Source of the DNA: an uncultured Bacteroidia bacterium | Lineage (GTDB): Bacteria; Bacteroidota; Bacteroidia; Bacteroidales; UBA932 | Assembly: GCA_902782225.1 (NCBI GenBank) | Contig: CACZMF010000004.1 | Location: forward strand, 62,001-126,000 | Direction of reading: 5' to 3' | Length of the DNA: 64,000 nucleotides | Part shown: piece by piece, positions 3,021 to 37,417 of the stretch | How the letters are laid out: every line of letters begins with the position of its first letter | How positions within the stretch are numbered: position 1 is the stretch's first letter | Notes under the pieces: generated by a model | Told to the model about the DNA's origin: nothing | Database searches by the model: none | Seen by the model: only the letters and a program-made list of their open reading frames with translations | Position numbers and translations under genes: made by a program

Positions 3021-3040
3021 GGAGAGAGGACATAATAAAC

Positions 3041-3076
3041 AAAACCGGTCTGCCTGGAATGGCGGACCGGTTTTTT
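3041..3076. terminator. Bidirectional intrinsic terminator
   Basis: AAAACCGGTC and GACCGGTTTT arms form a long GC-rich stem, extended inside by GCC/GGC, with a T run on the right and an A-rich run on the left (T-rich on the minus strand). It can end transcription of the TMEM43 gene from the left and of tRNA-Gly from the right. Confidence 0.85.
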
Positions 3077-3080
3077 GTTG

Positions 3081-3151
3081 AGCAGGATAAGGGAGTCGAA
3101 CCCTCCTCCTTGGCTTGGGAAGCCAATGCACTACCGATGTGCTAATCCTGC
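3081..3151 (-). tRNA. tRNA-Gly (anticodon CCC)
   Basis: The minus strand folds as a standard 71-base cloverleaf. The acceptor stem is GCAGGAT/ATCCTGC, the D stem GCAC/GTGC, the anticodon stem TTGGC/GCCAA with loop TTCCCAA, the T stem GAGGG/CCCTT with loop TTCGACT, and the discriminator base is T. The anticodon CCC reads GGG glycine codons. No CCA is encoded, as is usual in Bacteroidota. Confidence 0.95.
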
Positions 3152-21913: not shown

Positions 21914-23382
21914 GATACTACGACAAACTTATATTCGAACTCTCCCGTCCCGGCCGCAGCGGCTACTCGCTGCCGGACTACTCCGGAGGGGAGAAACTCC
22001 CCCTGAAAAACGTCCTACGGACCCCACCGCTGCGCTTCGCTTGCGGTTCCCCCTCTTATGGTGCCGAGGGTGGCACAGTTTTTCAGGGGGAGTTCCTCCC
22101 CTCCGGTGTATGGCGTGAATCACCTCTGGACCTGCCGGAAGTGAGCGAACCTGACGTGGTGCGCCATTACACCAACCTCAGCCAGATGAATTTCGGCGTG
22201 GACACAGGCTTCTACCCGCTTGGGTCCTGCACGATGAAATACAATCCCAAGATCAACGAGGAGATAGTGGCGCAGTTCAACGGCATCCATCCTCTCCAGC
22301 CGGATTCCACTGTGGAAGGCGCCCGTGCCATACTCGATTTCATGGACAAGGCCCTCGCAGAGATCACAGGCATGAAGCATTTCACCTTCCTGCCCTGCGC
22401 CGGTGCCCACGGAGAGCTGACCGGCCTGATGCTGATGCGTGAATACCATATGGGCAGGGGAGACCTTGCCCGCACCAAGGTCATCGTGCCCGACAGCGCC
22501 CACGGCACCAATCCTGCCAGCGCGGCTGTTTGCGGGCTCGAGGTGGTGGTGGTCAAATCCAAGCCCGACGGCCTGGTGGACGTGGAGGATCTCAAGCCCC
22601 TGCTCGGCCCCGACATCGCCGGCATAATGATGACCAACCCCAACACCCTCGGCCTATTCGAGCGCGACATCAAGGAAATCGCGTCACTGGTGCATAGCTG
22701 CGGCGGCCTGCTCTACTATGACGGCGCCAACATGAATCCCCTGCTCGGCATGGTGCGTCCCGGCGACATGGGCTTTGACATCATGCACCTCAACCTCCAC
22801 AAGACCTTCTCCACGCCCCACGGCGGAGGCGGTCCCGGCAGCGGCCCTGTGGGCGTGGCGGAAAAACTGGTCCCGTACCTGGCAAAACCGCGCGTGAGCG
22901 GCTTCCACGGCAATTTCGGAGTAATTCTCCGTGCCTGTGCCTACATACTCAGCCTCGGTCGCGAGAACATCAAGCTGGCTGGCAAACTGTCCACCCTGGC
23001 GGCAAACTACGTGAAGGAATCCCTGAAGGACTGCTACAAGCTGCCCATCCCTTCCGTATGCAAGCACGAATTCGTGTTCGACGGCCTGCTCGAAGCGGGA
23101 GACGTTTCCACCCTGGATGTGGCCAAGCGCCTGCTGGACTACGGTTTCCATGCCCCGACGATCTATTTCCCGCTCCTCTTCCATCAGGCAATAATGATAG
23201 AACCGACCGAAACCGAGTCGCTCCAGACCCTTGATGCCTTCATCGATGCGATGCGCGCCATTGCCGCTGAAGCAGCGAAGGATCCGGAACTGCTCCACGG
23301 TGCGCCGCACAACGCTCCCATTGGCAGGCCCGATGAGACCACTGCGGCCCGTCAGCCGGTCCTGAAATACACCGCCCAATGA
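21910..23382 (+). CDS. gcvPB: Glycine dehydrogenase (decarboxylating) subunit 2, with in-frame palindromic insert
   Basis: The 490-residue catalytic half of the P protein has [18 protein letters not shown] with PLP lysine K298, and [16 protein letters not shown] near the N-terminus. Between YSLP (about residue 18) and LPEVSE (about residue 80) the linker is about 28 residues longer than in the B. subtilis-type protein as I recall it. The extra part is encoded by a palindromic element (21983-22106; residues 25-66). The insert leaves the frame open and lies before the conserved core, so the enzyme is probably active. The stop overlaps the phosphoesterase start by 4 bases. Confidence 0.96.
21983..22106. 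repeat. Palindromic element A inside gcvPB
   Basis: Two 29-base arms (21983-22011 and 22078-22106) are inverted repeats with one mismatch. They flank a 66-base core that itself contains hairpins: GTCC/GGAC, CCGC/GCGG and GTGCC/GGCAC. The last 27 core bases, starting CCCTCTTATGGTGCC, recur exactly in element B at 37305-37417, whose arms are unrelated. Confidence 0.85.
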
Positions 23383-25007
23383 AGAAAGTACTGGCAATAG
23401 CCGCTTTTTTGCTTCTTCCCTTCCTGCTGCAGGGCGGAGTCGTGAAGGGCCGCGTGAGCTCAGAAGGCAGGCCGGTTGCCGGCGTGCAGGTGTCTGACGG
23501 CCGTCAGATAGTGCTCACGGACGCCCGCGGGCGCTACTCCATGAAGACCGACAAGGCCGACAGCATAGTGTTCATCACCACTCCGTCCGGCTATATCGCC
23601 GAGCCGATAGATCCCGTGCGCCCCGGCTTCTGGCAGCTTCTCACGGAGAAGCCGTGCAAGACTGAGGTGCATGATTTCAACCTTGTGCCACAGGACCAGA
23701 ACGGCTACAGCGTGATTTTCATCACCGACTGCCACCTTGCCGACGACCCTTCCCGCAACTGCCTGGAGCGCTTCCGGAAGGACGTGCTTCCGGTCGTAAA
23801 GCGTGAATACGAGGCGGCAGCGGCCAAAGGTCCGGTCTACACGATGAACCTTGGGGATTTTTCCCACGACCGCTACTGGTATGACTTCGATTTCAACGAA
23901 GCCGACGCCGAGCGTTTCCTCGTGTCGTGCGGCTATCCCTCTCCTGTCTACACTGTGACCGGCAACCACGACAATGACGGTGCCGTGGCCGGGCTGGGGG
24001 AGCGCACGGACTTCGTGTCTGCCTGGAACTACCGCCACACCTGGGGGCCCGGGTGCTATTCGGTCAACATAGGCGGCGACCACTGGATTTTCATGGACAC
24101 CGTGGAGTATATCAACGACGGCGATGTGGACAAGCGCCACAAGAATATCAACGGCAAGCGCAACTACCGCTGCCGCATCCTCGACAAGGACATCGAGTGG
24201 CTCAGGAAAGACCTGCAGTATGTCCGCAAGGACAGCCGCATCTTCCTCTGTACCCACGTGCCCCTCTTCAACGACGCGTTCAAGAGCGAGAGGCTCGAGG
24301 ACGGACAGGTAGCCGTGCTGGATGATGTATTCAAGGATTACCCCACGGTCTATGTGTACTCCGGCCACACCCACAAGCACCTGAATTCATCCTCCGGCAA
24401 ATACCCCCGCTTCAAGCAGTTCATCTTCGCGGCGACTTCCGGAAACATGTGGAACCACCCCGAAGGCTATCAGGCCATAGAATCCGATTCCAGCGACCAG
24501 GCCATCAATGTGATGGACTGCCGCGAGAGCGATCCCAGGCCCCGCTTTGTCCATATCACGGGCGTCGGGAAGATGCTTAGGGCATATGACATCAACACCG
24601 TCGCCGAGTACTACCGCACCGACCCTCAGTGCCGGATATTCCACCGCCTGTATCCCAACCGCACCTGGTTTGCCGATCCGGAGTTCGAGAACATGGTCTA
24701 TGTCAACTACTGGGGTTATGCCCCGGGGCAGAAGGTGGAGATGTTCGAGAATGGCAAGCCGCTGAAAGTGAGCCGTAAAGACTATGACGAGCCGCTCGCT
24801 GCCATAACCTATGTGACTCCCGGACTGAATGAAGGTTCAACGGCTTCGAAATCGAACGTGAAGAACCGCAGGACTTCCCACACTTTCGTCGCTACCGCAA
24901 GCACCTCCGACGCTCCGGTCGTGTTCCGCGCTACCGATGCCGAAGGCAATGTGGTGTGCGAAGAAGAAATAATCAGACCTAAAGTATTCAATCAATACAT
25001 CCATTAA
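23379..25007 (+). CDS. Secreted calcineurin-like phosphoesterase (three-domain type)
   Basis: The 542-residue protein has a signal peptide ([20 protein letters not shown]), an N-terminal beta domain like MetallophosN (residues about 22-110), a calcineurin-like metallophosphoesterase core and a C-terminal MetallophosC-like beta domain. Metal ligands are visible as [35 protein letters not shown] and YSGHTHKH. It probably acts in the periplasm on a phosphoester such as a phospholipid head group, nucleotide or glycan phosphate; substrate unknown. It overlaps gcvPB by 4 bases, but the context gives no clear metabolic link. Confidence 0.88.
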
Positions 25008-25025
25008 TTATATCTAATCCAAGTT

Positions 25026-25796
25026 ATGAAGAATTATTTTGATCTTACCGGCCGCGTGGCTGTCGTCACCGGCGCTTCCACTGGTCTTGGGCTGCAGATG
25101 GCAAAGGCGTTTGCAAGCCAGGGTGCCAAGCTTGTGCTTCTTGCAAGGCGTATGAACCTCCTTGAGGAGAATGCAAAAGCCATCACCGAGGAATTCGGCG
25201 TCGAGGTCCTTCCTTTTGCCTGCGACATCACCGACACCGAGAAAGTCAAGGCTGCTGTTGCTGCTACAATGGAGCGTTTCGGCCGCGTGGATATCTTGAT
25301 GAACAATGCCGGTACCGGTGCAGTGGCTCCTGCCGAAGAAATCACCGACGAGCAGTTCAAGCACGAATTGAACATCGACCTCTACGGCTCCTTCGTCTGC
25401 GCCCGTGAGTTCGGTAAGGAAATGATTAAGGCTGGCTATGGCCGTATCATCAATATCGCTTCCATGTATGGTCTGGTGGGCAACCTCATCGTGGGTTCCG
25501 CTCCCTACCACGCTGCCAAGGGCGGTGTCGTGAACCTGACCCGCGCACTTGCAGCAGAGTGGGGCAAGTACGGCATCACCGTGAACAGCATCTGCCCCGG
25601 TTATTTCTACACCGACCTGACCACCGCAACCCTCGATTCCGATTATTTCCAGGCAATCGCCAAGAACAACATCCCTCTCGGACGTTACGGCAAGCAGGGC
25701 GAACTCGACACCTGCGCCCTCTTCCTGGCATCTCCCGCCAGCACCTACGTCAACGGCCAGAACATCGCCGTGGACGGTGGCTACACCTGCATCTAA
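25026..25796 (+). CDS. SDR-family oxidoreductase (gluconate 5-dehydrogenase/KduD-like)
   Basis: The 256-residue classical short-chain dehydrogenase has the NAD(P) motif TGASTGLG, NNAG, the catalytic Ser near INIASMYG, the Y-x3-K pair in PYHAAKGG, and PGYFYTDL. The A-R-R after LVLL at the end of strand 2 favours NADPH. Closest by pattern are gluconate 5-dehydrogenases and related sugar-acid dehydrogenases. It could reduce a ketogluconate or 2,5-diketo-3-deoxygluconate, but a second SDR next to kduI is the better KduD candidate. A strong terminator follows. Confidence 0.8.
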   Translation: MKNYFDLTGRVAVVTGASTGLGLQMAKAFASQGAKLVLLARRMNLLEENAKAITEEFGVEVLPFACDITDTEKVKAAVAATMERFGRVDILMNNAGTGAVAPAEEITDEQFKHELNIDLYGSFVCAREFGKEMIKAGYGRIINIASMYGLVGNLIVGSAPYHAAKGGVVNLTRALAAEWGKYGITVNSICPGYFYTDLTTATLDSDYFQAIAKNNIPLGRYGKQGELDTCALFLASPASTYVNGQNIAVDGGYTCI

Positions 25797-25815
25797 TCAA
25801 TTGCTACATAACCCC

Positions 25816-25849
25816 AAAAAGGCCGGAGCTCTTCAGCCCCGGCCTTTTT
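25816..25849 (+). terminator. Intrinsic terminator after the SDR gene
   Basis: AAAAAGGCCGG and CCGGCCTTTTT form an 11-bp stem around a 12-base loop, ending in a T run. It lies 19 bases after the SDR stop. Confidence 0.9.
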
Positions 25850-25878
25850 GGCCTTTGGCCCTAGTTCTTTGAGAGGAT

Positions 25879-25945
25879 AAAAAAAGGCATCTCACTCGGA
25901 ATGGGATGCCTAATGGTTTCTCTAGAAACGTCATAACCCAATGAC
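25879..25945 (-). ncRNA. Candidate small RNA with three hairpins
   Basis: From a predicted start near 25945 the minus strand encodes three successive hairpins in about 67 bases: GTCAT/ATGAC with a 6-base loop, GTTTC/GAAAC with a TAGA loop, and a terminator stem AGGCATC/GATGCCT followed by a T run. A full consensus promoter lies directly upstream. I do not recognise a named RNA family. A 28-codon frame overlaps it but would start before the expected transcript start. Confidence 0.65.
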
Positions 25946-25949
25946 ATTG

Positions 25950-25979
25950 CAAAGATACAAATCAATCTTTAATTGTCAA
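25950..25979 (-). promoter_or_regulatory. Promoter of the candidate small RNA
   Basis: On the minus strand TTG (25979-25977), a 19-base spacer and TATCTTTG (25957-25950) match the consensus exactly and have the same spacing as the tRNA-Gly promoter. Confidence 0.75.
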
Positions 25980-26007
25980 GACTCTTTATTCGTGACAATA
26001 AAAGATT
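25964..26007. repeat. Inverted repeat over the small-RNA promoter
   Basis: A 15-base AT-rich arm (25964-25978) and its inverted copy (25993-26007) match at 14 of 15 positions around a 14-base loop. The left arm covers most of the small-RNA -33 element. It could be an operator or a weak terminator for hutI. The remaining bases to 26081 hold no gene. Confidence 0.6.
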
Positions 26008-26081
26008 TTGCTGATTTTTATAGCGAACCGCCGAAATCGAAAAAACCTTGACTACAATTCTTTATATGAAAGATTATCTTT

Positions 26082-27416
26082 TCAGCTCCGGCCTTTTTTG
26101 AATACGGTGCGTATCCAGGGGGTCTGGTAGGTGTAGGGGACTTTCGTGAGGGTCCAGCCGGGGCGGGTGAGGATGAGGTCTGCGCGTTTTCCCGGGGTGA
26201 TGGAACCGGTAACGTCGCTGATGCCCATGGCGTAGGCTCCGTTGAGCGTCAGTGCGTTCAGCGCCTGGACGGGAGTAAGCCGCATTTTGATGCAGGCGAG
26301 GGCCATCACGAAGCGCATATCGCCCATAGGGGAGGAACCGGGATTGTAGTCCGAAGCCAGGGCGATGCCCAGGCCTGCGGATATGAATTCTTTCGCCCGG
26401 CCGAAGGGTATTCCGAGGAAGAAAGAAGACCCCGGGAGCATCGTGGGCATGGTGCCGCTGCCCTTGAGAGCCGCGATTTCAGCATCGGTGGTCTGCTCGA
26501 GATGGTCCACGGAAAGTGCGCCGTGGGCTACGCCCACCTGCACTCCGCCGCTGACCCCCAGTTCGTTGGCATGGATCTTGGGCCTGAGGCCGCAGCGGGC
26601 GCCGGCTTCCAGTATCCTTGCCGTGTCTTCAGGCGTGAAGAAGCCGGAGTCGCAGAACACGTCCACGAAATCCGCCAGCTCCGCAGCCCGGGGCATCAGA
26701 TCAATCATTTCCCTGACATACGCCTCCTTCGTGTAGCCCCGGCCCACGGCATGGGCTCCCAGGAAGGTGGCGCGCACGAGCGCCGGGACGCTTTCGCGTA
26801 TGCGGCGTATGACCCTGAGCATCTTAAGCTCTCCCTCGGGGCAGAGGCCGTAGCCGCTTTTGATTTCGATTGCAGTCGTGCCGGAAGCCATCATCTCTTC
26901 GACTCTCTCCATCGACTGGCGGTAGAGTTCGTCTTCGGACGTGGCGTTCAGCAGGTCGGCGGAATTGAGTATGCCGCCTCCGCGGGCCGCAATCTCTTCA
27001 TAGCTAAGGCCCTCTATCTTGTCGAGGAATTCTCCGTCGCGGCTGCCGGCATAGACGATGTGGGTGTGGCTGTCGCAGAATCCCGGCATCACCATCCCGC
27101 CCTGAGCATCGATTACCGCATCAGGCCCGTCCGGAGCAGAGTGTACCCCAGGCCCCTTTTCAGTATCGGCCGGAGCAGTGTGTGCCCGAAGCCCCATAAA
27201 ACATGGGGAAAAGGGGCTTCGGGCACACACTGCTCCGGCCTCTGACATGTTACCGGCCTCTGACATGGTGCCGAAATCATCGATGGTGCCGTCGGGGGCT
27301 ATGCGCAGCCATGCGTCGTGCAGGATTCCGGTCTCGGACATTTCGGCCCCCTGCTTGCGCAGAACGCCTTTCGGGACTATGCCGACTAGCTCGCCTATGT
27401 TGATGATTGTTGTCAT
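26082..27416 (-). CDS. hutI: Imidazolonepropionase, with palindromic insert
   Basis: HutI hydrolyses 4-imidazolone-5-propionate to N-formimino-glutamate, the third step of histidine breakdown. The 444-residue amidohydrolase has VMPGFCDSHTHIVYAGSRDGE (His ligands), IEIKSGYGL, FLGAHAVG, KIHANELG and SVDHLEQ, and LASDYNPGSSP. It is longer than the usual 400-420 residues. The excess is at about residues 45-100, where a 73-base perfect palindrome and partial copies of its arm encode a low-complexity stretch before DAVIDAQGG. This lies in the small beta domain outside the active site. It is the last gene of the hut operon and overlaps hutH by 4 bases. Confidence 0.95.
   Translation of the reverse strand: MTTIINIGELVGIVPKGVLRKQGAEMSETGILHDAWLRIAPDGTIDDFGTMSEAGNMSEAGAVCARSPFSPCFMGLRAHTAPADTEKGPGVHSAPDGPDAVIDAQGGMVMPGFCDSHTHIVYAGSRDGEFLDKIEGLSYEEIAARGGGILNSADLLNATSEDELYRQSMERVEEMMASGTTAIEIKSGYGLCPEGELKMLRVIRRIRESVPALVRATFLGAHAVGRGYTKEAYVREMIDLMPRAAELADFVDVFCDSGFFTPEDTARILEAGARCGLRPKIHANELGVSGGVQVGVAHGALSVDHLEQTTDAEIAALKGSGTMPTMLPGSSFFLGIPFGRAKEFISAGLGIALASDYNPGSSPMGDMRFVMALACIKMRLTPVQALNALTLNGAYAMGISDVTGSITPGKRADLILTRPGWTLTKVPYTYQTPWIRTVFKKGRS
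27168..27240. repeat. Palindromic element C inside hutI
   Basis: Perfect 28-base inverted repeats (27168-27195 and 27213-27240) surround a 17-base centre, itself flanked by CCCCAT/ATGGGG. A diverged partial copy of the arm lies at 27130-27160, and a tandem 18-base repeat starting CCGGCCTCTGACATG follows from 27235. All of it is translated in hutI. Confidence 0.85.
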
Positions 27417-28900
27417 AAATACTGTTCCTGACGCAGGAATTCAACCGATTTCTCGATAAGTGGATGCATATAGCAGTCGTTGTCGATGAAGGGAACCACC
27501 TTGCGGAAGTCTTCGAACACCCGCTCGATAGCGGGGGAGGATTTCGCCGGACGCCTGAACTCGAGGGCCTGGGCGGCGTTGAACAGCTCGATTCCGAGCA
27601 CTGTCTCCGTGTTGTCCACAATCCGCACGAGCTTTGTGGCTGAATTGGAACCCATGCTCACGTGGTCCTCCTGGCCCTGGGAAGAAGGAATGGAGTCGCA
27701 GGACGCCGGCCAGCAGAGGCCCTTGTTCTGGCTCACGATGGAAGCGGCAGTGTACTGAGGAATCATAAATCCGTTGTTGAGGCCCGGGGTAGCGACCAGA
27801 TACTTGGGAAGGCCGCGCAGGCCGTGGATCAGCTGGTAGGTGCGGCGCTCGGAGATGCTGGCAAGTTCCGACATCGCTATCGCAAGGGCATCCATAGGGA
27901 TGGCTATGGGCTCTCCGTGGAAGTTGCCGGCCGATATGACCATGTCCTCGTCCGGGAAAATGTTGGGATTGTCGGTGGCGGAGTTGATTTCCGCCTCGAT
28001 GACGGACTTTACGTAGAGGATGTTGTCCTTGACGGCACCGTGGACCTGGGGGATGCAGCGGAAACTGTAGGGGTCCTGGACGTGCTCCTTGGGGCGCCGG
28101 GACAGTTCGCTGCCCTCCAGCAGCTCGATGAAGCGCTCGCCGGTGAGTATCTGGCCCTTATGGGGGCGCAGATGGTGTGTGAGCGGCAGGAACGGCTCTA
28201 TGCGGCCGTCGTAGGCGTCCAGAGACATGGCGCCGATGAGGTCCGCCCACCTTGACAGGCGCATGCTCTTGAGGATGGACCATACGGCGTGGGCGCTCAT
28301 GAACTGGGTGCCGTTGAGCAGGGCGAGGCCTTCCTTCGACTGGAGGGTTATGGGCTCCCAGCCCTTTTCTGCCCAGACTTCGGCGGCGGGGCGCACCTTT
28401 CCTTTGTACAGCACTTCGCCCAGGCCGAGCAGCGGAAGGCTGAGGTGGGCGAGGGGGGCGAGGTCGCCTGACGCGCCGAGGGAGCCCTGCTGGTAGACCA
28501 CCGGAAGGATGTCCTCGTTGAACATGTCGATAAGGCGCTGGACGGTGATGAGCTGCGCCCCGGAGTGGCCGTAGGAGAGGCTCTGCGCCTTGAGGAAGAG
28601 CATCAGCTTGACTATCTGCGGGCGCACGGTCTCGCCGGCTCCGCAGGCGTGCGAGACGACCAGGTTGTACTGGAGCCGGGATAGCTGGTCGCGGGGGATG
28701 GTCACGTTGTAGAGCGAGCCGAAACCGGTGGTGATGCCATAGACCGGCCTGCCTATGTCTTCCATCTTGTCGTCCAGGTATTTGCGGCATTTGATTATGG
28801 CGTCTGTCGCCTCCTGCGAGAGGACCAGTTTTTCATTGTTGTCGATTATGGCCTTGAGCCGCTCCAGGGAGAGGCGCTCCTTTGAGATGTAGTGAATCAT
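27413..28900 (-). CDS. hutH: Histidine ammonia-lyase
   Basis: HutH removes ammonia from histidine to give urocanate. The 495-residue protein has the MIO-forming Ala-Ser-Gly triad at residues 143-145 in QQGSLGASGDLAPLAHL, the N-terminal YGITTGFGSL with catalytic Tyr, and QDPYSFRCIPQVHG and QEDHVSMGSN toward the C-terminus. Length is typical. It overlaps hutU and hutI by 4 bases on each side, consistent with a tightly coupled operon. Confidence 0.97.
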   Translation of the reverse strand: MIHYISKERLSLERLKAIIDNNEKLVLSQEATDAIIKCRKYLDDKMEDIGRPVYGITTGFGSLYNVTIPRDQLSRLQYNLVVSHACGAGETVRPQIVKLMLFLKAQSLSYGHSGAQLITVQRLIDMFNEDILPVVYQQGSLGASGDLAPLAHLSLPLLGLGEVLYKGKVRPAAEVWAEKGWEPITLQSKEGLALLNGTQFMSAHAVWSILKSMRLSRWADLIGAMSLDAYDGRIEPFLPLTHHLRPHKGQILTGERFIELLEGSELSRRPKEHVQDPYSFRCIPQVHGAVKDNILYVKSVIEAEINSATDNPNIFPDEDMVISAGNFHGEPIAIPMDALAIAMSELASISERRTYQLIHGLRGLPKYLVATPGLNNGFMIPQYTAASIVSQNKGLCWPASCDSIPSSQGQEDHVSMGSNSATKLVRIVDNTETVLGIELFNAAQALEFRRPAKSSPAIERVFEDFRKVVPFIDNDCYMHPLIEKSVEFLRQEQYL

Positions 28901-30915
28901 TGTTCGTTTAGTGCTTTTCTGATTAATGTGGTGTCGGCGTCGTTGGGGAGGGTGACGCGTAGCCCCGGGGTGCGGGCCATTTCCCGCTCGATTGCAAAAC
29001 GGGCGCCTTCGTTGCGGGCCCAGGAGCGGCGTGCGATGCCGTTGTTGACGTCCCAGAACAGCATTTCGCGTATGTGGCGGGCGGAATCCTCGGAACCGTC
29101 GATGACCATTCCGAATCCTCCGTTGATTACCTCGCCCCAGCCCACGCCGCCGCCGTTGTGGACGGAGACCCAGGTGGCGCCGCGGAAGGAGTCGCCGATG
29201 ACGTTCTGGACGGCCATATCCGCAGTGAAGCGGGAGCCGTCGTAGATGTTGGATGTCTCACGGAAGGGGGAGTCGGTACCGGAGACGTCGTGGTGGTCGC
29301 GCCCGAGCACTATGGGAGCCTTGATTTCGCCCTTGCGTATGGCCTCGTTGAAGGCCAGCGCGATGCGTGTGCGGCCTTCGCAGTCGGCGTAGAGTATGCG
29401 GGCCTGGGAGCCCACGACGAGCCGGTTGCGGCCGGCTTCCTCTATCCAGCGGATGTTGTCGCGCATCTGGCCGGAGATTTCTTCGGGAGCGCTGGCGGCG
29501 ATTTCGGACAGCACCCTGACGGCAATGGCGTCGGTCTGCGCGAGGTCTTCAGGGTCTTCGCTCATGCACACCCACCTGAACGGGCCGAATCCATAGTCGA
29601 AGTAGAGCGGCCCCATGATGTCCTGGACGTATGAGGGGTAACGGAAACGGCCGTCGGGAAGCAGCACGTCGGCGCCTGCACGGGAGCTTTCCAGCAGGAA
29701 GGCATTGCCGTAGTCGAAAAAGTACATTCCCCTGGCGGACAGGCGGTTGATTGCCGCGACCTGACGCCTCAGGGAGGCCTGCACCGCTTCCTTGAACCTG
29801 TCGGGCTCCTCAGCCATCATCTTCTTGGATTCCTCCAGACTGTAGCCGGCCGGGTAGTATCCGCCCGCCCACGGGTTGTGGAGGGAAGTCTGGTCGGAGC
29901 CCAGGTCCACGTGGATATCCTCGTCGGCGAGGCGTTCCCAAAGGTCCACCACATTGCCGACGTAGGCAAGGGATACCACCTCCCGGGAGGCCACGGCCCT
30001 GCGTATTCTGGGCACCAGTTCATCCAGGCTGTAGTGGAGTTCATCCACCCAGCCCTGCTCGTAACGCTTCCCGGCCGCCTTGGGATTGATTTCTGCGGTG
30101 ACGCTGACCACGCCGGCGATGTTGCCGGCCTTGGGCTGGGCCCCGGACATGCCGCCGAGCCCCGCCGTCACGAACAGCAGCCCGGAGTTGTCGTCCCGGG
30201 AGCCGGCGGTGGACCTCACTTTCCGCGCAGCGTTCATCACCGTGATGGTGGTGCCGTGCACTATTCCCTGCGGCCCGATGTACATATAGGAGCCGGCGGT
30301 CATCTGCCCGTACTGGCTCACTCCTAGGGCGTTGAATTTCTCCCAGTGGTCGGGCTTGGAATAATTTGGGACCACCATTCCGTTGGTCACTATCACCCTG
30401 GGAGCGTCCTTGTGGCTGGGGAAAAGGCCCAGCGGATGGCCGGAATACATCACCAGGGTCTGTTCGTCCGTCATCGTGGCAAGATACTGCATCACGAGGC
30501 GGTACTGGGCCCAGTTCTGGAAAATGGCGCCGTTGCCTCCGTAGATGATGAGCTCGTGGGGATGCTGGGCCACCCTGGGGTCCAGGTTGTTCTGTATCAT
30601 CGCCATAATGGCCGCCGCCTGGGTGCTGCGCGCGGGATACTCGCTTATCGGGCGCGCGTACATTTCATAAGCAGGGCGGAAACGGTACATATAGATGCGT
30701 CCGTAGAGGCGCAGCTCTTCCGCGAATTCCGGAGCCAGCACGGCGTGGTGCCGGGCCGGGAAGTAGCGCAGGGCGTTACGCAGGGCGAGTTCCTTTTCGG
30801 CCGGACTCAGTATGTCTTTGCGCCTCGGGGCGTGGTTGACTGTAGCGTCGTAGGGCCTGGGGGCCGGCAGCTCTTCGGGGATGCCGGCAAGGATGTCTGT
30901 CTTGAACTGGTCCAT
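28897..30915 (-). CDS. hutU: Urocanate hydratase
   Basis: HutU adds water to urocanate, using tightly bound NAD+ as electrophile, to give imidazolonepropionate. The 672-residue protein contains YGGNGAIFQNWAQYRL, MYSGHPLGLFPS, GGMSGAQPKA, DQTSLHNPWAGGYYP and HNGGGVGWGEVINGG. It is longer than the roughly 555-residue E. coli/Pseudomonas form, as are other Bacteroidota members. It starts 3 bases after ftcD and overlaps hutH by 4 bases. Confidence 0.95.
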   Translation of the reverse strand: MDQFKTDILAGIPEELPAPRPYDATVNHAPRRKDILSPAEKELALRNALRYFPARHHAVLAPEFAEELRLYGRIYMYRFRPAYEMYARPISEYPARSTQAAAIMAMIQNNLDPRVAQHPHELIIYGGNGAIFQNWAQYRLVMQYLATMTDEQTLVMYSGHPLGLFPSHKDAPRVIVTNGMVVPNYSKPDHWEKFNALGVSQYGQMTAGSYMYIGPQGIVHGTTITVMNAARKVRSTAGSRDDNSGLLFVTAGLGGMSGAQPKAGNIAGVVSVTAEINPKAAGKRYEQGWVDELHYSLDELVPRIRRAVASREVVSLAYVGNVVDLWERLADEDIHVDLGSDQTSLHNPWAGGYYPAGYSLEESKKMMAEEPDRFKEAVQASLRRQVAAINRLSARGMYFFDYGNAFLLESSRAGADVLLPDGRFRYPSYVQDIMGPLYFDYGFGPFRWVCMSEDPEDLAQTDAIAVRVLSEIAASAPEEISGQMRDNIRWIEEAGRNRLVVGSQARILYADCEGRTRIALAFNEAIRKGEIKAPIVLGRDHHDVSGTDSPFRETSNIYDGSRFTADMAVQNVIGDSFRGATWVSVHNGGGVGWGEVINGGFGMVIDGSEDSARHIREMLFWDVNNGIARRSWARNEGARFAIEREMARTPGLRVTLPNDADTTLIRKALNEQ

Positions 30916-30918
30916 AGC

Positions 30919-32625
30919 TTACAGTTTGATGTTGGCATTGACGGCATCCAGCACTTGCTCCTGCAGGGCAACGGCCTCCTCCACTATCTCCGCGGCCCGC
31001 CGGATAAGCGGCTCTGCGGGGGCGGTGTCGCTGAGGCCTGCGGCGTTGATCCGCACGTTGAGTTCGGCTCCGCGTATACCTGCTACTGCGGCCAGAGCCG
31101 CTACACCGGCGTCAGATGCGGAAGCGGGATTGCCCTTGCGTGCCATCTCAAGAGCGAGAGGCAGGGCCTTCAGGGAAGCTTCCATAGTGCGCAGGGGCAC
31201 CGAGGCGGCATACAGCGTCGCCTCTTCCAGGGCGGTGGCGCGGGCCGCCTTTTCCTCTTCCGTGCCCTTTGGAAGCGACAGGGCATCCATTATGCGGTTG
31301 AACGCGGCCGTGTCTTCATCCACGAGGGCAAGCAGTTCGCCAATCAACGCCTGTCCCTTTTCGGCAACGTCCGAAAATTCTTTCCAGCGCTCGTCCCATC
31401 CTCTCTTGTGGGCGGAAAGATTTGCCACCATTGTGGCGAGGGCTGCGCCAAGCCCGCCCATGACGGCAGACACGGAGCCTCCGCCGGGAGCCGCCGACTC
31501 CGAGGCTGTCTCGAGGGTGAAGCCTTTGACGCTCATGCGTACGAGCCGCTCGCGGGCCGCCTTCTCCTGCTCGTCTTCCATCAGGTACTCGATGACCTTT
31601 TCCCGGGGATCGAAGGGCTTCAGGTCGTCCAGTGACATGGATTTCACAGCAATCCTGATAATCTCTTCCTCGCTGATTCCGAGGGAACGCTGCTGCTTTT
31701 CCAGATAATACTTGCCCGCCTCGAGGAGCACTTTCCTAGGCACCAGGCCCACGATTTCGGCGCCGGTCACGCGGAGGCCGCGCGCGGCGGCGGCCCTGCA
31801 CACTTCGTCGAAGGCGACGTGGAGGGGCGTAGCATCGATGTCGGTTATGTTCATGGACACTTGTGCAATGCCGTATTCATCTATGTACCAGCCGATTGCC
31901 TTGCAGCCCTTCAGGGTGCCTGGTATCCAGACCTGGCCTCCTTCTGCGTCTTTGATCAGTTTGCCGGTCAGGGATCCGCCTTCACGGGCCTTGCGGCCTT
32001 TTTCGCGCACGTCGAAGGCCACGGCCATGGCCCTGCGGGTGGAGGTGGTGTTGAGATTGAAATTCACGGCCACGAGGAAATTGCGGGCGCCCACGTTGGT
32101 GGCTCCGGTGCGGGCGGCCGTCTCGTCGAAACTGCCGCCGAAGTCCGGCCTGCGGGCAGGATCCGCCATCTTCTCGGGGAGGGCTTCATATTCGCCGGCG
32201 CGGCAAACCGCAAGGTTGCGGCGTTCGGGCTTGAAAGCCGCCGCCTCATAGCAGTAGCAGGGGATTCCGAGTTCACGCCAGAGGCGTCCGGCGAGGGCCC
32301 GGGCGAGCTCGGCGCACTCTTCCAGGGTGATGCCGGACACCGGAATCAGGGGAAGCACGTCGGTGGCGCCGCTGCGCGGATGCGCGCCGTGGTGCTTGCG
32401 CATGTCTATCAGTTCCTTGGCAGCTGCAGCTCCCTTGAATGCGGCTTCCACGACCGGTTCCGGCTCTCCCACGAAGGTCACGACCGTGCGGTTCGTGGCC
32501 TCGCCGGGATCCACGTTGAGCACCTTCACGCCTTCGACCGACGCTATTGCGGAGACGATTCCGTCTATGACCGCCTTGTTCCGTCCCTCGCTGTAATTGG
32601 GGACGCATTCGATGATTCTTTTCAT
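30919..32625 (-). CDS. ftcD: Bifunctional glutamate formimidoyltransferase/formimidotetrahydrofolate cyclodeaminase
   Basis: The 568-residue protein fuses two enzymes. Residues 1 to about 325 are the formiminotransferase (ECVPNYSEGRNKAVI, GATDVLPLIPVSG, VNFNLNTTSTRRAM), which moves the formimino group of formiminoglutamate to tetrahydrofolate. Residues about 360-568 are the cyclodeaminase (SAAPGGGSVSAVMGGLGAAL), which forms methenyl-THF and ammonia. The arrangement is as in mammalian FTCD. It is the first gene of the hut operon, so histidine carbon ends as glutamate and its one-carbon unit feeds folate, the same pool served by the glycine cleavage operon. A good promoter lies 25 bases upstream. 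Confidence 0.96.
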   Translation of the reverse strand: MKRIIECVPNYSEGRNKAVIDGIVSAIASVEGVKVLNVDPGEATNRTVVTFVGEPEPVVEAAFKGAAAAKELIDMRKHHGAHPRSGATDVLPLIPVSGITLEECAELARALAGRLWRELGIPCYCYEAAAFKPERRNLAVCRAGEYEALPEKMADPARRPDFGGSFDETAARTGATNVGARNFLVAVNFNLNTTSTRRAMAVAFDVREKGRKAREGGSLTGKLIKDAEGGQVWIPGTLKGCKAIGWYIDEYGIAQVSMNITDIDATPLHVAFDEVCRAAAARGLRVTGAEIVGLVPRKVLLEAGKYYLEKQQRSLGISEEEIIRIAVKSMSLDDLKPFDPREKVIEYLMEDEQEKAARERLVRMSVKGFTLETASESAAPGGGSVSAVMGGLGAALATMVANLSAHKRGWDERWKEFSDVAEKGQALIGELLALVDEDTAAFNRIMDALSLPKGTEEEKAARATALEEATLYAASVPLRTMEASLKALPLALEMARKGNPASASDAGVAALAAVAGIRGAELNVRINAAGLSDTAPAEPLIRRAAEIVEEAVALQEQVLDAVNANIKL

Positions 32626-32650
32626 AGAAAAGGGTTATTAGTTTTATCTC

Positions 32651-32680
32651 CAAATATAGCGAGATTTTTGCTCATCCAAA
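32651..32680 (-). promoter_or_regulatory. Promoter of the hut operon
   Basis: On the minus strand TTTG (32680-32677), an 18-base spacer and TATATTTG (32658-32651) match the consensus, 25 bases before the ftcD ATG. TATATTTA at 32693-32700 on the plus strand may serve the divergent YitT gene. Confidence 0.7.
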
Positions 32681-32720
32681 ACAAAAATGTGCTATATTTA
32701 CACGGCCAATCAACCACATT

Positions 32721-33650
32721 ATGAATAACGTGCTTCGTTACCTTTGTACCTTCAAGTTCTGGAAGGAACTCGTCCTTATGACGCTCGGTATGGCGATCGC
32801 TGCGGCAGGAGTCTACTACTTCATGATGCCGAGCAAACTGGTCCTCGGTTCCATATCCGGTCTGTCCATAGTCATATCCAACCTTTTCGGCCTGGCCGGC
32901 ATCACCGTGAAAGTTTCGGTGGTGGTGACGGTGATCAATGCCATCCTGCTGATAATGGCCTGGTTCCTAATAGGAAAGGAATTCGGCGCCAAGACGGTCT
33001 ACACCGCCTTGATTCTCGGCCCGCTGCTGGAATTCTGGGAGAAGGTGATGCCCTATGAGAAACTCATCGAACCCGGATTGACCTCCGTGATGGGCGACCC
33101 GCTCCTGGACCTGATCTGCTTCGTGCTTATGGTGAGCATATCGCAGACATTGCTGTTCCATATCAACGCATCCACCGGAGGCCTCGACATCCTGGCCAAG
33201 ATAGTCAACAAGTACCTGCATTTCGACATAGGCGTGTCGGTGAGCGTGGCCGGCGCCATCATCTGTTGCACTGCCTTCGCCATCAATCCTTTCCGCCTGG
33301 TGGTCACCGGCCTTGTGGGCACCTGGTTCAACGGCCTGGCCATAGATCACTTCACCGCCAGCATCAACAAGCGCAAGAGGGTGTGCATAATATCGAAGGA
33401 ATACGAACGCCTGCGCGTCTATATCATCGACACCCTCCACAGGGGCTGCAGCCTGTATGAAGTCAAGGGCGGCTACAGCGGGGAAATAAACGTCGAGGTG
33501 CAGGCGCTGCTGACCCAGGATGAGTTCTCGAACCTGATGAACTATATCCGCACCGAAAAGATAGATGCCTTCATAACGGCCGGCAACGTGAGCGAGATTT
33601 ACGGCCTGTGGAACAACCAGAAGCACCGCCGGGGGAATTCAGGAGTTTAG
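32721..33650 (+). CDS. YitT family membrane protein
   Basis: The 309-residue protein has about five to six N-terminal hydrophobic helices (the YitT/DUF161 region, with FMMPSKLVLGSISGLS and NASTGGLDILAKIVNKYLHF) and a soluble C-terminal DUF2179 domain from about residue 215 (RVYIIDTLHRGCSLYEVKGG, FITAGNVSEIYG). The biochemical role is not established in Bacteroidota; transport or membrane stress roles have been suggested for relatives. It is divergent from the hut operon and appears monocistronic or cotranscribed with little else. Confidence 0.85.
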   Translation: MNNVLRYLCTFKFWKELVLMTLGMAIAAAGVYYFMMPSKLVLGSISGLSIVISNLFGLAGITVKVSVVVTVINAILLIMAWFLIGKEFGAKTVYTALILGPLLEFWEKVMPYEKLIEPGLTSVMGDPLLDLICFVLMVSISQTLLFHINASTGGLDILAKIVNKYLHFDIGVSVSVAGAIICCTAFAINPFRLVVTGLVGTWFNGLAIDHFTASINKRKRVCIISKEYERLRVYIIDTLHRGCSLYEVKGGYSGEINVEVQALLTQDEFSNLMNYIRTEKIDAFITAGNVSEIYGLWNNQKHRRGNSGV

Positions 33651-33651
33651 C

Positions 33652-33682
33652 TTGCATTTTGTGCTGAAATTGATTACTTTTG
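33652..33682 (+). promoter_or_regulatory. Promoter of the 33709 lipoprotein gene
   Basis: TTG (33652-33654), a 20-base spacer and TACTTTTG (33675-33682) match the consensus, 26 bases before the ATG. Confidence 0.65.
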
Positions 33683-33708
33683 GACGTTAGTTAAATAAAG
33701 TCAAGATA

Positions 33709-34620
33709 ATGAAACGTTTTTCCATCATCTTTGCCGCATTGCTGGCACTTGTCGCCGTTTCCTGCAAGAAGCCCGTCGATCCCAACCTCCCCACCATCAC
33801 CTGGGCGTCAAATCCCAGTTTCGGACAGGTGGAACTGGCCCCCGGACTGGATGGCGCAGTTGCAATCGCTGCCCCCGGCAAGATAGACCTGCTGACTGTC
33901 ACGCTGGAACTCGGCGAATACTCGCTCCTTGCCAATCAATACATAGAAACCTCCGCCAACAAAGGCTCCGCTTCAAAGGGGGCTGTGCTGGACTTCATCG
34001 ACGATCCTCTGGCATCTGCATTCGTCAAGGGACTCGGGATGCCCGGCGGCTCTTCGCTTCGCGGCAAGACCCTGGCGAACATCGACCTGGTGGCTATACT
34101 CAATACCCTGATCAAGGGCCAGCCCGTGAAGAACAACACCACCTTCACCATCACGATCAACCTCCAGGATCAGGAGAAGCACAGCGCCGTGGCAAAGTCG
34201 AAGATCCATTTCACCTCCGCCCCTGCGTTCTACTGGGACAATAACTCCAAGTTCGACGTGGTCGACCTGAACGCCGCCCAGATTGCCTGCAAGATACGCG
34301 TCAACGCTCCCGGCAAGATCAAGGATCTCACCATCAAGCTCGAAGACGGAGCTGACGCCAAGCTGATGTCCTACATCAAGAACCGTACTGCGAACAGCGG
34401 CTCATTGATTGATCTCGTCAATGACGAGAAGGCCGGCTCGGCGTTCAAGGACTCTTTCCCTTCCGGTTCGACAGTTTCCGGAAAGGTGGATGTGGTGCTG
34501 GATTTCTCCTTTATGTATGACCTCCGCTTCGATATGGCCACGTCGACCAACGTCTTCACCATCAAGGTGATGGATGTCAACGGCAAGGAGGAGACCACTC
34601 AGGTCAAGTTCAAGCGGTAG
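33709..34620 (+). CDS. Lipoprotein of unknown function with internal duplication
   Basis: The 303-residue protein has a lipoprotein signal (LLALVAVSCKKPVD, Cys at residue 19). The mature part holds two similar beta-rich halves: each begins near W-x-S/N-N-P/S-x-F, continues with a NAPGKI or AAPGKI turn plus DLT-I-x-L-E, then a Y-I-x-T/N-R-x-A-N segment and a FVKG/FKDSFPSGS loop, and ends in a T-F-T-I strand. This suggests a duplicated domain of about 140 residues. No enzyme motif is visible and I do not recognise the family. It is probably anchored in the periplasm or at the surface. Its stop is 5 bases from the convergent eda stop. Confidence 0.7.
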   Translation: MKRFSIIFAALLALVAVSCKKPVDPNLPTITWASNPSFGQVELAPGLDGAVAIAAPGKIDLLTVTLELGEYSLLANQYIETSANKGSASKGAVLDFIDDPLASAFVKGLGMPGGSSLRGKTLANIDLVAILNTLIKGQPVKNNTTFTITINLQDQEKHSAVAKSKIHFTSAPAFYWDNNSKFDVVDLNAAQIACKIRVNAPGKIKDLTIKLEDGADAKLMSYIKNRTANSGSLIDLVNDEKAGSAFKDSFPSGSTVSGKVDVVLDFSFMYDLRFDMATSTNVFTIKVMDVNGKEETTQVKFKR

Positions 34621-34625
34621 TTCTA

Positions 34626-35288
34626 TTATTTCCTGAACCACTCGAGAGACTTGGCGCAGAGCGCGGAAATCGCGTTCCAGTCGCCTGCGGCTATGACCTC
34701 CTTCGGGAAGAGCTTCGAGCCCATCCCGACTGCGGTCACTCCGCTCTTTGCCCAGGCGGAGAGGTTTTCCTGGGTCGGCTCCACGGCGCCCGTGCACATG
34801 ATCATTGCCCAGGGCAGGGGGGCGAGCACGTTCTTGACGAACGCAGGGCCTCCGACGGTGCCGGCAGGGAAGACTTTCACCAGGTCGCATCCAAGCTCCT
34901 GTGCGTGCACGATTTCGCTCACTGTGCCGCAGCCGGGGGAGTAGGGGACGCCCCTGCGGTTGCACAGGGGGGCGACTTCTTCCACCAGGCAGGGGGACAC
35001 GATGAAATCGGCTCCCATCTGGATGTAGAGCGCGGCGGTCGGGGCATCGAGGATGGTGCCGGCGCCAAGCGCCATTTCGGGACATTCAGCACGCACGAAA
35101 GCCATTACGGCCTCAAACACCTTGTGGGCTCCGTCGCCGCGGTTCGTGAACTCGAAGGCGCGGATGCCTCCGTCATAGCAGGCTTTGACGACCTTGCAGG
35201 TCAGTTCTACGTCTTTGTTGTAGAACACGGGCACGATTCCGGTGCCGCGGATGATACCGATGGTATCGATTTTATTGAATTTTGACAT
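34626..35288 (-). CDS. eda: KDPG aldolase (2-dehydro-3-deoxy-6-phosphogluconate aldolase)
   Basis: The enzyme cleaves KDPG to pyruvate and glyceraldehyde-3-phosphate, the last step of both galacturonate routes encoded here. The 220-residue class I aldolase has the Schiff-base lysine K138 in CDLVKVFPAG, the catalytic Glu in FEFTNRGDGA (E46), and GAGTILD and ADFIVSPC. It lies 25 bases after the KDG kinase gene, in the order of the pathway. Confidence 0.95.
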   Translation of the reverse strand: MSKFNKIDTIGIIRGTGIVPVFYNKDVELTCKVVKACYDGGIRAFEFTNRGDGAHKVFEAVMAFVRAECPEMALGAGTILDAPTAALYIQMGADFIVSPCLVEEVAPLCNRRGVPYSPGCGTVSEIVHAQELGCDLVKVFPAGTVGGPAFVKNVLAPLPWAMIMCTGAVEPTQENLSAWAKSGVTAVGMGSKLFPKEVIAAGDWNAISALCAKSLEWFRK

Positions 35289-35313
35289 AGATGCTAAACT
35301 TGATGTTTACTCC

Positions 35314-36351
35314 TTAACGGCTTACACGGCCGGAACCGCCGCCATTGATCAGACCTTCGACCTCGGCCACGGAGACGCGGTTGTAGTCGCCGATTATGGT
35401 GTGCTTGAGGGCGGATGCGGCAGCGGCGAATTCAATCGCTTCCTGGTCGGTGCCGTAGGTGATAAGGCCGTAGAGCAGGCCGCCCATGAAGGAATCTCCG
35501 CCGCCCACGCGGTCGACGATGTGGGTGATGTCGTAGCGCCTTGACTGCCAGAGGGTCTTGCCGTCGTAGAGGACGCCGCCCCAGGTGTTGTGGTTGGCAT
35601 TGATGGAGCCGCGCAGGGTGACGGCCACCTTCTTGCAGCGGGGGAATTTCTCCATGAGCTGGCGGCACACGCTGATGAATGCGGTCTGGTCGATTTCGCC
35701 GCCGGTCTTCTCCGCGTCGAATCCTTCGGGCTTGATGCCGAATTCCTTCTCGGCGTCTTCTTCGTTGCCGAGGATGAGGTCGCAGCCTTCCACGAGGGCG
35801 GGCATGACCTCGGACGCGCTCTTGCCGTATTTCCAGAGTTTCTTGCGGTAGTTGAGGTCGCAGCTCACCTTCACGCCCATCTCATTTGCCACCTTGATGG
35901 CTTCCAGGCAGGCGTCTGCAGCGCCCTGGCTGAGGGCGGGGGTGATGCCGGTCCAGTGGAACCAGTCGGCTCCTTCGAGCACTTTGTGCCAGTCCACCAT
36001 GCCGGGTTTGATTTCGGAAATCGCAGAGTTTGCCCTGTCGTAGATGACCTTGCTGCCGCGGGCGACGGCTCCGGTCTCGAGGTAGTAGATGCCCACGCGG
36101 TCGCCGCCGTAGACGATGTCGTCCACTCCGACGCCGAAGCCGCGGAGCTCGGCGACACACATGTCTGCGATGTCGTTCTTGGGAAGGCGGGTCACGAAAC
36201 GGGCGTCCACGCCATAATTGGCGAGGGAGACTGCAACATTGGCTTCGCCGCCGCCGAAAGTGGCGTCAAACTGGCGGGCCTGGGAGAACCGGAGATATCC
36301 GGGGGTGTAGAGGCGAAGCATCACTTCGCCGAATGTTACTACTTTTGCCAT
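35314..36351 (-). CDS. kdgK: 2-keto-3-deoxygluconate kinase (PfkB family)
   Basis: KdgK phosphorylates KDG from altronate dehydratase or KduD to KDPG. The 345-residue PfkB-type kinase has the N-terminal GGGEANVAVSLANYG substrate motif, NYRKKLW, and the C-terminal RVGGGDSFMGGLLYG loop with the catalytic Asp. Placement beside eda and divergent from a kduD-kduI unit makes the substrate assignment firm, although the family also contains fructokinases and ribokinases. A TATATTTG box at 36394-36387 precedes it by 35 bases. Confidence 0.9.
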   Translation of the reverse strand: MAKVVTFGEVMLRLYTPGYLRFSQARQFDATFGGGEANVAVSLANYGVDARFVTRLPKNDIADMCVAELRGFGVGVDDIVYGGDRVGIYYLETGAVARGSKVIYDRANSAISEIKPGMVDWHKVLEGADWFHWTGITPALSQGAADACLEAIKVANEMGVKVSCDLNYRKKLWKYGKSASEVMPALVEGCDLILGNEEDAEKEFGIKPEGFDAEKTGGEIDQTAFISVCRQLMEKFPRCKKVAVTLRGSINANHNTWGGVLYDGKTLWQSRRYDITHIVDRVGGGDSFMGGLLYGLITYGTDQEAIEFAAAASALKHTIIGDYNRVSVAEVEGLINGGGSGRVSR

Positions 36352-36386
36352 ATTTAAAACACTGATTTATATCGGTTATAGTTGTG

Positions 36387-36394
36387 CAAATATA
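36387..36394 (-). promoter_or_regulatory. -7 box of kdgK-eda
   Basis: TATATTTG on the minus strand matches the consensus, 35 bases before the kdgK ATG. The palindromic operator at 36411-36430 lies across the expected -33 region. Confidence 0.6.
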
Positions 36395-36410
36395 AGCAAT
36401 TTTCGCATAA

Positions 36411-36430
36411 TTCCGTGTACGGTCACGGAA
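36411..36430. promoter_or_regulatory. Candidate operator between kdgK and the kduD-like gene
   Basis: TTCCGTG and CACGGAA are perfect 7-base inverted arms around a 6-base spacer, the size of a LacI- or GntR-type site. GGTCACG plus an A-rich tail then recurs as a direct repeat (36421-36435 and 36443-36458), 22 bases or two helical turns apart. The cluster sits between the two divergent -7 boxes and could control both transcripts. Confidence 0.5.
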
Positions 36431-36459
36431 AAATGATTATGAGGTCACGAAAAAAATGT

Positions 36460-36467
36460 TAACTTTG
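36460..36467 (+). promoter_or_regulatory. -7 box of the kduD-like operon
   Basis: TAACTTTG matches the consensus, 29 bases before the ATG at 36497. Confidence 0.6.
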
Positions 36468-36496
36468 TAAACAGTAACACGAAAACCATCCTTCTT

Positions 36497-37300
36497 ATGG
36501 ACAATCTTTTTTCTCTGAAAGGCAAGAACGCCTGGGTCACCGGAGCCGCCTACGGCATCGGATTCGCCATCGCCAAAGCATTCGTGGAGGCCGGCGTGGA
36601 AAACATCATCTTCAACACGTCCAACGAGGCCTCGATGCTGAAGGGGCTCGATGCCTACCGCGAAGCCGGTATCAGCAACGTCCGCGGCTACGTGTGCGAC
36701 GTGACTGATGAAAATGCGGTCAAGGAGCTCGTTGAGCGCATCCACAGGGAAGTGGGGCAGATAGATATCCTGGTCAACAATGCCGGCATCATCAAGCGCA
36801 TCCCTATGCACGAAATGAAGCGCGAGGAGTTCCAGCGGGTCATCGACGTGGATCTCGTGGGTCCTTACATCTGCTCCGCTGCCGTGGTGCCCGAGATGAT
36901 GGAGCGCCGAGAGGGAAAGATAATCAATATCTGCTCTATGATGAGCGAACTGGGCCGCGAGACCGTGAGCGCCTATGCCGCCGCAAAGGGCGGACTGAAG
37001 ATGCTGACCCGCAACATCTGCTCGGAGTACGGCGAGTACAACATCCAGTGCAACGCAATAGGCCCCGGCTACATTGCGACGCCCCAGACGGCACCCCTGC
37101 GTGAGCGCCAGCCGGACGGCAGCCGCCATCCTTTCGACAGCTTCATCTGCGCCAAGACCCCTGCCGGCCGCTGGCTGGAGCCCGATGAGCTCGCCGGCCC
37201 CGCTGTCTTCCTCGCATCTAAGGCCTCCGATGCCGTGAACGGCCATATCCTCTACGTGGACGGCGGCATCCTGGCATACATCGGCAAGCAGCCCAAATAA
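36497..37300 (+). CDS. kduD: SDR oxidoreductase, probable KduD (DKII reductase)/gluconate 5-dehydrogenase
   Basis: The 267-residue classical SDR has TGAAYGIG for NAD(P), NNAGIIKRIPMHEM, catalytic Ser near INICSMM, Y-x3-K in AYAAAKGG and PGYIATPQT. The sequence type is annotated as gluconate 5-dehydrogenase in Bacteroidales. In pectin loci it is expected to interconvert 2,5-diketo-3-deoxygluconate and KDG, the KduD step, because it heads an operon with a permease and kduI and faces kdgK. The symbol is given on context. The alternative is a true gluconate 5-dehydrogenase. Confidence 0.8.
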   Translation: MDNLFSLKGKNAWVTGAAYGIGFAIAKAFVEAGVENIIFNTSNEASMLKGLDAYREAGISNVRGYVCDVTDENAVKELVERIHREVGQIDILVNNAGIIKRIPMHEMKREEFQRVIDVDLVGPYICSAAVVPEMMERREGKIINICSMMSELGRETVSAYAAAKGGLKMLTRNICSEYGEYNIQCNAIGPGYIATPQTAPLRERQPDGSRHPFDSFICAKTPAGRWLEPDELAGPAVFLASKASDAVNGHILYVDGGILAYIGKQPK

Positions 37301-37304
37301 TTTA

Positions 37305-37417
37305 ATGCTGCCGGCTCCGGCCCGGGAATCGTCGCTGCGCGACCCCTCCCATAAATGGGCCCCTCCCTCTTATGGTGCCGAGGGTGGCACAGATTCCCGG
37401 GCCGGAGCCGGCAGCAT
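37305..37417. repeat. Palindromic element B between kduD-like and EIIC genes
   Basis: Perfect 26-base inverted arms (37305-37330 and 37392-37417) flank a 61-base core with its own hairpins: GTCGC/GCGAC, CCCAT/ATGGG and GTGCC/GGCAC. The last 27 core bases are identical to those of element A in gcvPB, while the arms differ completely. It fills nearly all of the 130-base intergenic space inside an operon. Confidence 0.88.

Follow-up and report, generated by a model that had tools for sequence, protein, structure and literature searches.

The stretch of DNA analysed here, hereafter the window, covers 64,000 nucleotides (nt) from an uncultured Bacteroidia bacterium (Bacteroidales; UBA932; assembly GCA_902782225.1, contig CACZMF010000004.1, positions 62,001 to 126,000 of the forward strand) and holds two long palindromes, element A in gcvPB and element B between a KduD-like dehydrogenase gene and an EIIC-GAT-like gene (Table 1). 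Each consists of a core enclosed by a pair of inverted arms. The cores resemble each other and recur in many other places of this and related genomes, and the arms differ from one locus to the next.

Table 1. Elements A and B and the genes that carry or flank them, in window positions.
Feature	Position	Strand	Remarks
Element A, left arm	21983..22011		29 nt
Element A, core	22012..22077	minus	strand on which pairing is kept across the family
Element A, right arm	22078..22106		29 nt, one mismatch to the left arm
gcvPB	21910..23382	+	carries element A in frame near its start; core-free orthologues exist
KduD-like dehydrogenase gene	36497..37300	+	upstream of element B
Element B, left arm	37305..37330		26 nt
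Element B, core	37331..37391	minus	61 nt; strand on which pairing is kept across the family
Element B, right arm	37392..37417		26 nt, perfect
EIIC-GAT-like gene	37431..38840	+	downstream of element B

Both palindromes had been noticed in a sequence-only reading of the window, and their arms, the shared end of their cores and the order of the core hairpins, identical in A and B, were all found again; the arms of A and B are indeed unrelated. A repeat finder extends the arms of A to 33 nt (94%), and reports for B arms of 26 nt with a 100% match and 61 nt between them. The 28-mer CCCTCTTATGGTGCCGAGGGTGGCACAG is identical in A (22051) and B (37365); with up to three mismatches it has two matches in the window and none in 100 shuffles. 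Against 200 shuffles, A and B both stand out as strongly folding (z -8.79 for A, -9.14 for B). The sequence-only reading named gcvPB correctly as the gene at A; more precisely, A lies inside gcvPB and not beside it, the frame stays open through the element, which is in frame, and the product is still recognized as GcvPB (648.5 bits, cut-off 441).

The core is not confined to the two places from which it was first described. In what follows, G and L numbers are genome and locus labels, G000 being the genome that holds A and B. Element A has 13 matches in G000, two of which are its own arms, leaving 11 places. In ten of these copies the arms measure 25-33 nt and differ by a few mismatches at most, while the eleventh (L013, G000:C21) is a tandem of the form arm-core-arm-core-inverted arm, in which the arm is present in two direct copies and the second core is longer. 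Overall, 171 elements under about 92 genome labels, a count possibly slightly off as labels were assigned by hand and several were merged, share the core inside long, near-perfect inverted arms. This set was defined by a core pattern with at most three mismatches, leaving out the diverged cores of L271, L285, L286 and L405. Rows with an arm score below 12 were dropped from the arm/core similarity and same-locus sets, and rows with an arm score below 16 or an arm under 18 nt from the empty-site, paired-change, skew, host-gene and strand-stability sets.

The 61-nt core of B matches 21 of 61 genomes, namely 21 of the 37 of the genus (its own included) and none of the 24 from other families. In a draw of 295 genomes of the order, the core was found in four: G000, G254 (of the genus; a match of 25 nt only), G524 (another genus of the family; two copies whose arms measure just 7 and 8 nt by the arm finder) and G606 (another family). 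The three copies of G606 carry three unrelated arm pairs, hence the principle reaches beyond the genus. The core pattern occurs in at least 119 stretches of GTDB genomes, and among the matches listed all titles read Bacteroidales or Bacteroidia, many of them rumen. We take such metagenome-assembled genomes to belong often to the GTDB genus Cryptobacteroides. No match was found in phages or plasmids with element B or its core as query, and viral contigs gave a single core-pattern match (L263, an IMG/VR contig, 4056-4079), around which the script found no arms. At L334 (~2810-3110) and L335 (~2850-3150), the cores hold about 60 extra nt that include TTGTCCCCCAGGGGACATTTG or a sequence similar to it; they were considered as an autonomous longer version and rejected as such, the extra ~60 nt holding no gene. 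At L008, L039 and L210, a GTTCCACGTGGAAC palindrome adjoins the element or its empty site.

Dispersed short palindromes call to mind repetitive extragenic palindromic (REP) or REPIN-like elements moved by a Y1 (RAYT) transposase. Divergent Y1 proteins do exist in the genus, and by plain count 18 of the 21 genomes with the core and 9 of the 16 without it have a PF01797 hit. However, the 16 stretches around PF01797 hits hold no core at E<0.01 (one chance-level match, E 0.35), the ends vary in this family, and L362 (~2400-2490) shows by eye two GGTGTCC/GGACACC hairpins beside the Y1 gene that are possibly its own REPs. We therefore regard this origin as very improbable.

The contrast between a constant inside and a variable outside, first seen in A and B, holds in many copies, and the arms do not fall into a few conserved types. 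All 119 left arms with an arm score of at least 18 differ as strings (18-36 nt). The innermost arm pairs are conserved (consensus AAACC); beyond about 10 pairs the arms show only a weak self-complementary bias, G-rich and then C-rich. Arm similarity is unrelated to core similarity (rho -0.016, 4128 non-orthologous pairs): the five pairs with core identity of at least 98.5% have a mean arm identity of 0.43, against 0.42-0.45 in the other classes and 0.36 in the flank control. Since near-identical cores do not share arms, the arms do not travel with the core. Within G000 itself, one 60-nt core recurs unchanged in L003, L004 and L008, with arms that are unrelated among the three. Exceptions are six G087/G098 loci with similar left ends and eight of the 12 fetched G016 loci (L068-L075) with similar ends. 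The latter have a longer core and look as if they had spread as a conventional unit.

Copies lie between genes or in frame in gcvPB, rmlB, tsaB and an E2 gene. The element-carrying GcvPB, RmlB and TsaB frames score above their family cut-offs, and the E2 of G087 with its element matches E2 families below theirs. At 45 loci the element lies in a stop-free frame reaching 240 nt on each side, nearby control windows being stop-free in 86 of 128 cases. The gcvPB and rmlB sites carry different insertions in different species. At the rmlB sites L115, L117, L123, L127, L129, L138 and L142, several other repeats and palindromes occupy the same place in other species, among them the hairpins with unrelated loops of L127 and L142. 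Likewise, L347 (G220) has a palindrome with an unrelated loop behind kduD, where G000 has element B. In the window itself, another palindrome (27131-27240) has perfect 28-nt arms around a 17-nt loop of different sequence, and a diverged second copy of one arm adjoins it. Both genes flanking B read in one direction; the top NCBIfam name above cut-off for the upstream gene is gluconate 5-dehydrogenase, and the downstream gene reaches 359.6 bits, under a cut-off of 542.2.

How arms private to a locus might arise was addressed in the sequence-only reading by proposing that the core inserts and that one target flank is copied to the other side, giving a target-derived arm pair. Sites that are occupied in one genome and empty in another bear on this proposal. 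Behind yggS, G177 (85%) is empty and reads TATTAAATGG, where in G000 (L004) the complete palindrome is flanked by TTA left and right; this site is also occupied in G319 and G219, the arms of G319 being partly like those of G000. At the kdu site, stop and start overlap in four core-free relatives, and each of the three occupied sites, in G000, G204 (with the core inverted) and G004 (with a diverged core), has an arm pair of its own. The best sites come from G003/G173 (flanks 87-99%), the close pairs G087/G098 and G093/G173 being of little use; by eye, L305 and L048 show no clear target duplication. G003 lacks L305. The L048 element is present in G003 and G093 and absent in G173, which suggests that it was cleanly lost there. 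Emptiness may thus be secondary, and by itself an empty site does not reveal where arms come from.

Arms with their flanks were aligned to core-free loci in 522 comparisons, among which loci recur, so that the rows are not independent of each other. The arm counted as absent in 483 comparisons, as partial in 29 and as present in 10. Absence here means that the alignment took in 50 nt or more of flank but less than 35% of the arm, and includes alignments that ended early; in one of the 'present' rows (L278 vs L271) the locus is in fact occupied, by an element whose core has diverged. The gcvPB site alone supplies 30 of the 39 partial or present rows (23 of 29 and 7 of 10, respectively), A contributing six partial rows and L085 17 partial and seven present ones. 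Three gcvPB orthologues without the core align with the right arm of A over as many as 24 of its 33 positions, a match with p 0.013 against arm shuffles but 0.117 against other arms. The best case outside the gcvPB site is L414, where the right arm of L047, but not the left, is found (87%). Conversely, neither arm is found in the clean empty sites L377, L406, L413 and L417, nor at kdu in the four core-free sites followed by the same gene. When arms at three loci were tested formally, three passed against arm shuffles (A right, L088 left and L088 right), and one of 20 did better than the pool of other arms at p<0.05 (L088 right); L088 right, with p 0.026, is thus in both groups. By eye, L306/L307, L012/L216, L317/L411 and, in rmlB, L006/L142 also lean toward flank copying. 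By-eye comparisons in gcvPB, rmlB and tsaB were nonetheless rejected as proof, as the formal test, the 522 wider comparisons and the cleaner empty sites do not confirm them in general. Target-derived arms are thus not supported in general, although the gcvPB site of A and L047 lean that way; because empty sites can be later losses, they weaken the idea without disproving it, and we consider it rather improbable.

Comparison of the same locus between genomes bears on what happens to the arms once in place. When the 171 elements were sorted by flank homology, pairs at the same locus in different genomes (70) had mean identities of 0.767 in the core and 0.534 in the arm, pairs at different loci of the same genome (189) 0.784 and 0.434, and pairs at different loci of different genomes (9458) 0.640 and 0.400. 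Cores are therefore equally alike within a genome and within a locus (p 0.24), and arms are clearly more alike within a locus than within a genome (p 7e-5), which partly bears out the other suggestion of the sequence-only reading, a modular family that exchanges arms. The close pairs L016/L325, L046/L313 and L130/L135 have nearly the same arms, yet L306/L307, with flanks at 92-96%, have different ones. Over the 24 same-locus pairs that could be aligned, the arms have 423 unchanged positions, 95 with two-sided changes that keep the pair (47 transitions and 48 transversions) and 45 with changes that break it. Of 71 same-locus pairs, 33 have their cores in opposite orientation relative to the flanks; one of the 71 consists of two elements of one locus in one genome, and in both counts the pairs share loci. 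Some of these 33 inversions may be separate insertions, but L053/L187, L041/L175 and L048/L329 combine an inverted core with similar arms.

Mismatches within the arms distinguish the two strands. On the plus strand of the core, i.e., the core as originally written in the sequence-only reading, they comprise 72 A.C, 25 G.T and 49 others. Outside the innermost eight pairs the counts are 63 A.C versus 16 G.T (p 9e-8; 50 elements versus 9), with no skew in the innermost eight (nine of each), and hairpin 2 has 17 A.C versus 3 G.T. As A.C cells read G.U on the opposite strand, the minus strand is the one on which pairing is kept. Sorted by arrangement relative to the host gene, whose direction was taken from a crude open-frame script, A.C:G.T is 26:0 (++), 11:6 (+-), 13:5 (--) and 9:4 (-+); only ++ is significant alone, but all four go in the same direction, so the skew follows the core and not simply the host mRNA.

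It is conceivable that folding is under no selection at all, template switching at the hairpin keeping the arms paired and the strand skew being mutational. The near-equal share of transversions among the paired changes, the core inversions, and the palindromes with unrelated loops at the same sites (L127 and L142 in rmlB, L347 at kdu) would all suit such a process. That the skew keeps one direction with respect to the core, whichever of the four host-gene arrangements is taken, and again in hairpin 2, argues against it and suggests that more than mutation is at work; we find this explanation quite improbable.

The predicted minus-strand structure was evaluated on 22 sequences of one core subtype. 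In these, 97.7% of cells are paired versus 85.2% in shuffles, with 88 two-sided changes versus 24.1; none of the slid versions of the structure exceeds 49.5% paired, and further pair types show no excess (24 versus 26.1). The covariation lies mostly in the arms and the third hairpin and supports the predicted minus-strand helices, but the same would be expected of single-strand DNA in folded form. Minus strands are also predicted to be more stable in 135 of 144 elements. A G-quadruplex was considered, the minus strand having G-tracts, and rejected, as folding with quadruplexes allowed placed one in 12 of the 144 minus strands and in none of the 144 plus strands. In Rfam, only a tRNA matches in the window, and L003 and L006 at a relaxed threshold gave six matches, all under gathering scores.

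Such covariation and skew, together with arms inherited at the locus and several sites occupied in more than one species, would be expected of a structured RNA family with little or no mobility, residing at old loci and with arms corresponding to a P1-like stem drifted by compensatory change, a course common among the closing stems of RNAs. This alternative is nevertheless at odds with presence and absence between close relatives, with near-identical cores and unrelated arms in one genome, with many copies inside open frames, and with the occurrence of both orientations to host genes, and it seems unlikely to us.

We tentatively favor, with a confidence somewhat short of even, the view that A and B are dispersed structured RNA or single-strand-DNA elements whose arms form a closing helix that is free in sequence and kept paired. 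The working form would be the minus strand in its folded state, be it RNA or single-stranded DNA, and the core is probably constrained or homogenised among the copies of one genome. Closing stems of many RNAs are constant inside and variable outside; what is unusual in comparison is that the elements are dispersed, alike within a genome and in frame in genes, and that their core flips. As for the origin of the arms, snap-back (template-switch) synthesis could make the matching arm in one step at a new site, and could also mend mismatches and flip the core. Transversions among the paired changes fit template switching, which is reported to make and mend stems in the available part of one account (PMC8794818). 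A bolder version, possible but doubtful, is that of a mobile element without end identity: the core alone would move as a folded single strand and its closing arm would be made afresh by snap-back copying, so that each insertion would be born with perfect private repeats and then be kept paired on one strand, letting the core flip.

Several observations weigh against the dispersed-element view. Two lineages (G016 and G087/G098) have shared ends, and arms are slightly more alike within one genome than between genomes (0.434 versus 0.400, p 6e-7), hence not wholly independent. Transversions, about half of the paired arm changes (48 of 95), bypass G.U, and selection on RNA is thus not required. 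Orientation of the elements to host genes is unskewed (42 ++ versus 37 --), which gives no sign of a role in host mRNA. A possible pseudoknot is invariant and gives no covariation test, and the core alone shows the same excess of minus-strand stability. Finally, no mobilizing enzyme was identified, and the RNA form is a predicted one.

Small mobile elements are usually known by their conserved ends, and the reverse is seen here in well over 100 copies. Because the ends are not conserved, searches for conserved terminal repeats would miss the family, each palindrome looking unique. The question raised is how locus-specific arms are made and kept. The origin and upkeep of stems are usually studied one hairpin at a time, and this family offers many natural replicates for following how long perfect stems come about and remain paired as their sequence changes. 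Moreover, the copies in GcvPB, RmlB, TsaB and an E2 are added peptides with which the proteins still match their families.

No description of such a family was found in the literature, which is weak evidence of novelty as most subscription papers lay outside the search. Known systems, as described in the available parts of the sources cited here, share some of its features. Miniature inverted-repeat transposable elements (MITEs) are also under 500 bp, with inverted repeats and no coding capacity of their own, but have terminal inverted repeats and target duplications (PMC10969869); here the repeats differ from copy to copy, and, apart from the G016 and G087/G098 loci, copies do not have conserved terminal repeats in common. 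REP and REPIN sequences associated with RAYT are likewise short, dispersed palindromes in many copies (PMC3733652, PMC3116915), but REPs have a conserved tagged sequence, and no core was found here in the 16 stretches around Y1 hits. Integron attC sites are palindromic, variable in sequence and conserved in structure, their bottom strand being used folded (PMC2727003); in the present elements, by contrast, conservation lies in the centre and variation in the outer stem, and no cassette array was seen, no integrase search having been made. Template-switch hairpins have perfect stems from one event, mended by multibase paired changes (PMC8794818), but stem from a mutation process on existing genes, whereas here a dispersed family shows one core and a strand skew. 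Finally, Rickettsia palindromic elements (RPE) are short palindromes, many of them in frame in unrelated genes (PMC10969869), and in-frame insertion in protein genes is found here too; RPE families, however, are named by conserved sequence and peptide (PMC10969869), whereas the elements described here are conserved in their middle only, not over their full length, and keep arms private to each locus.

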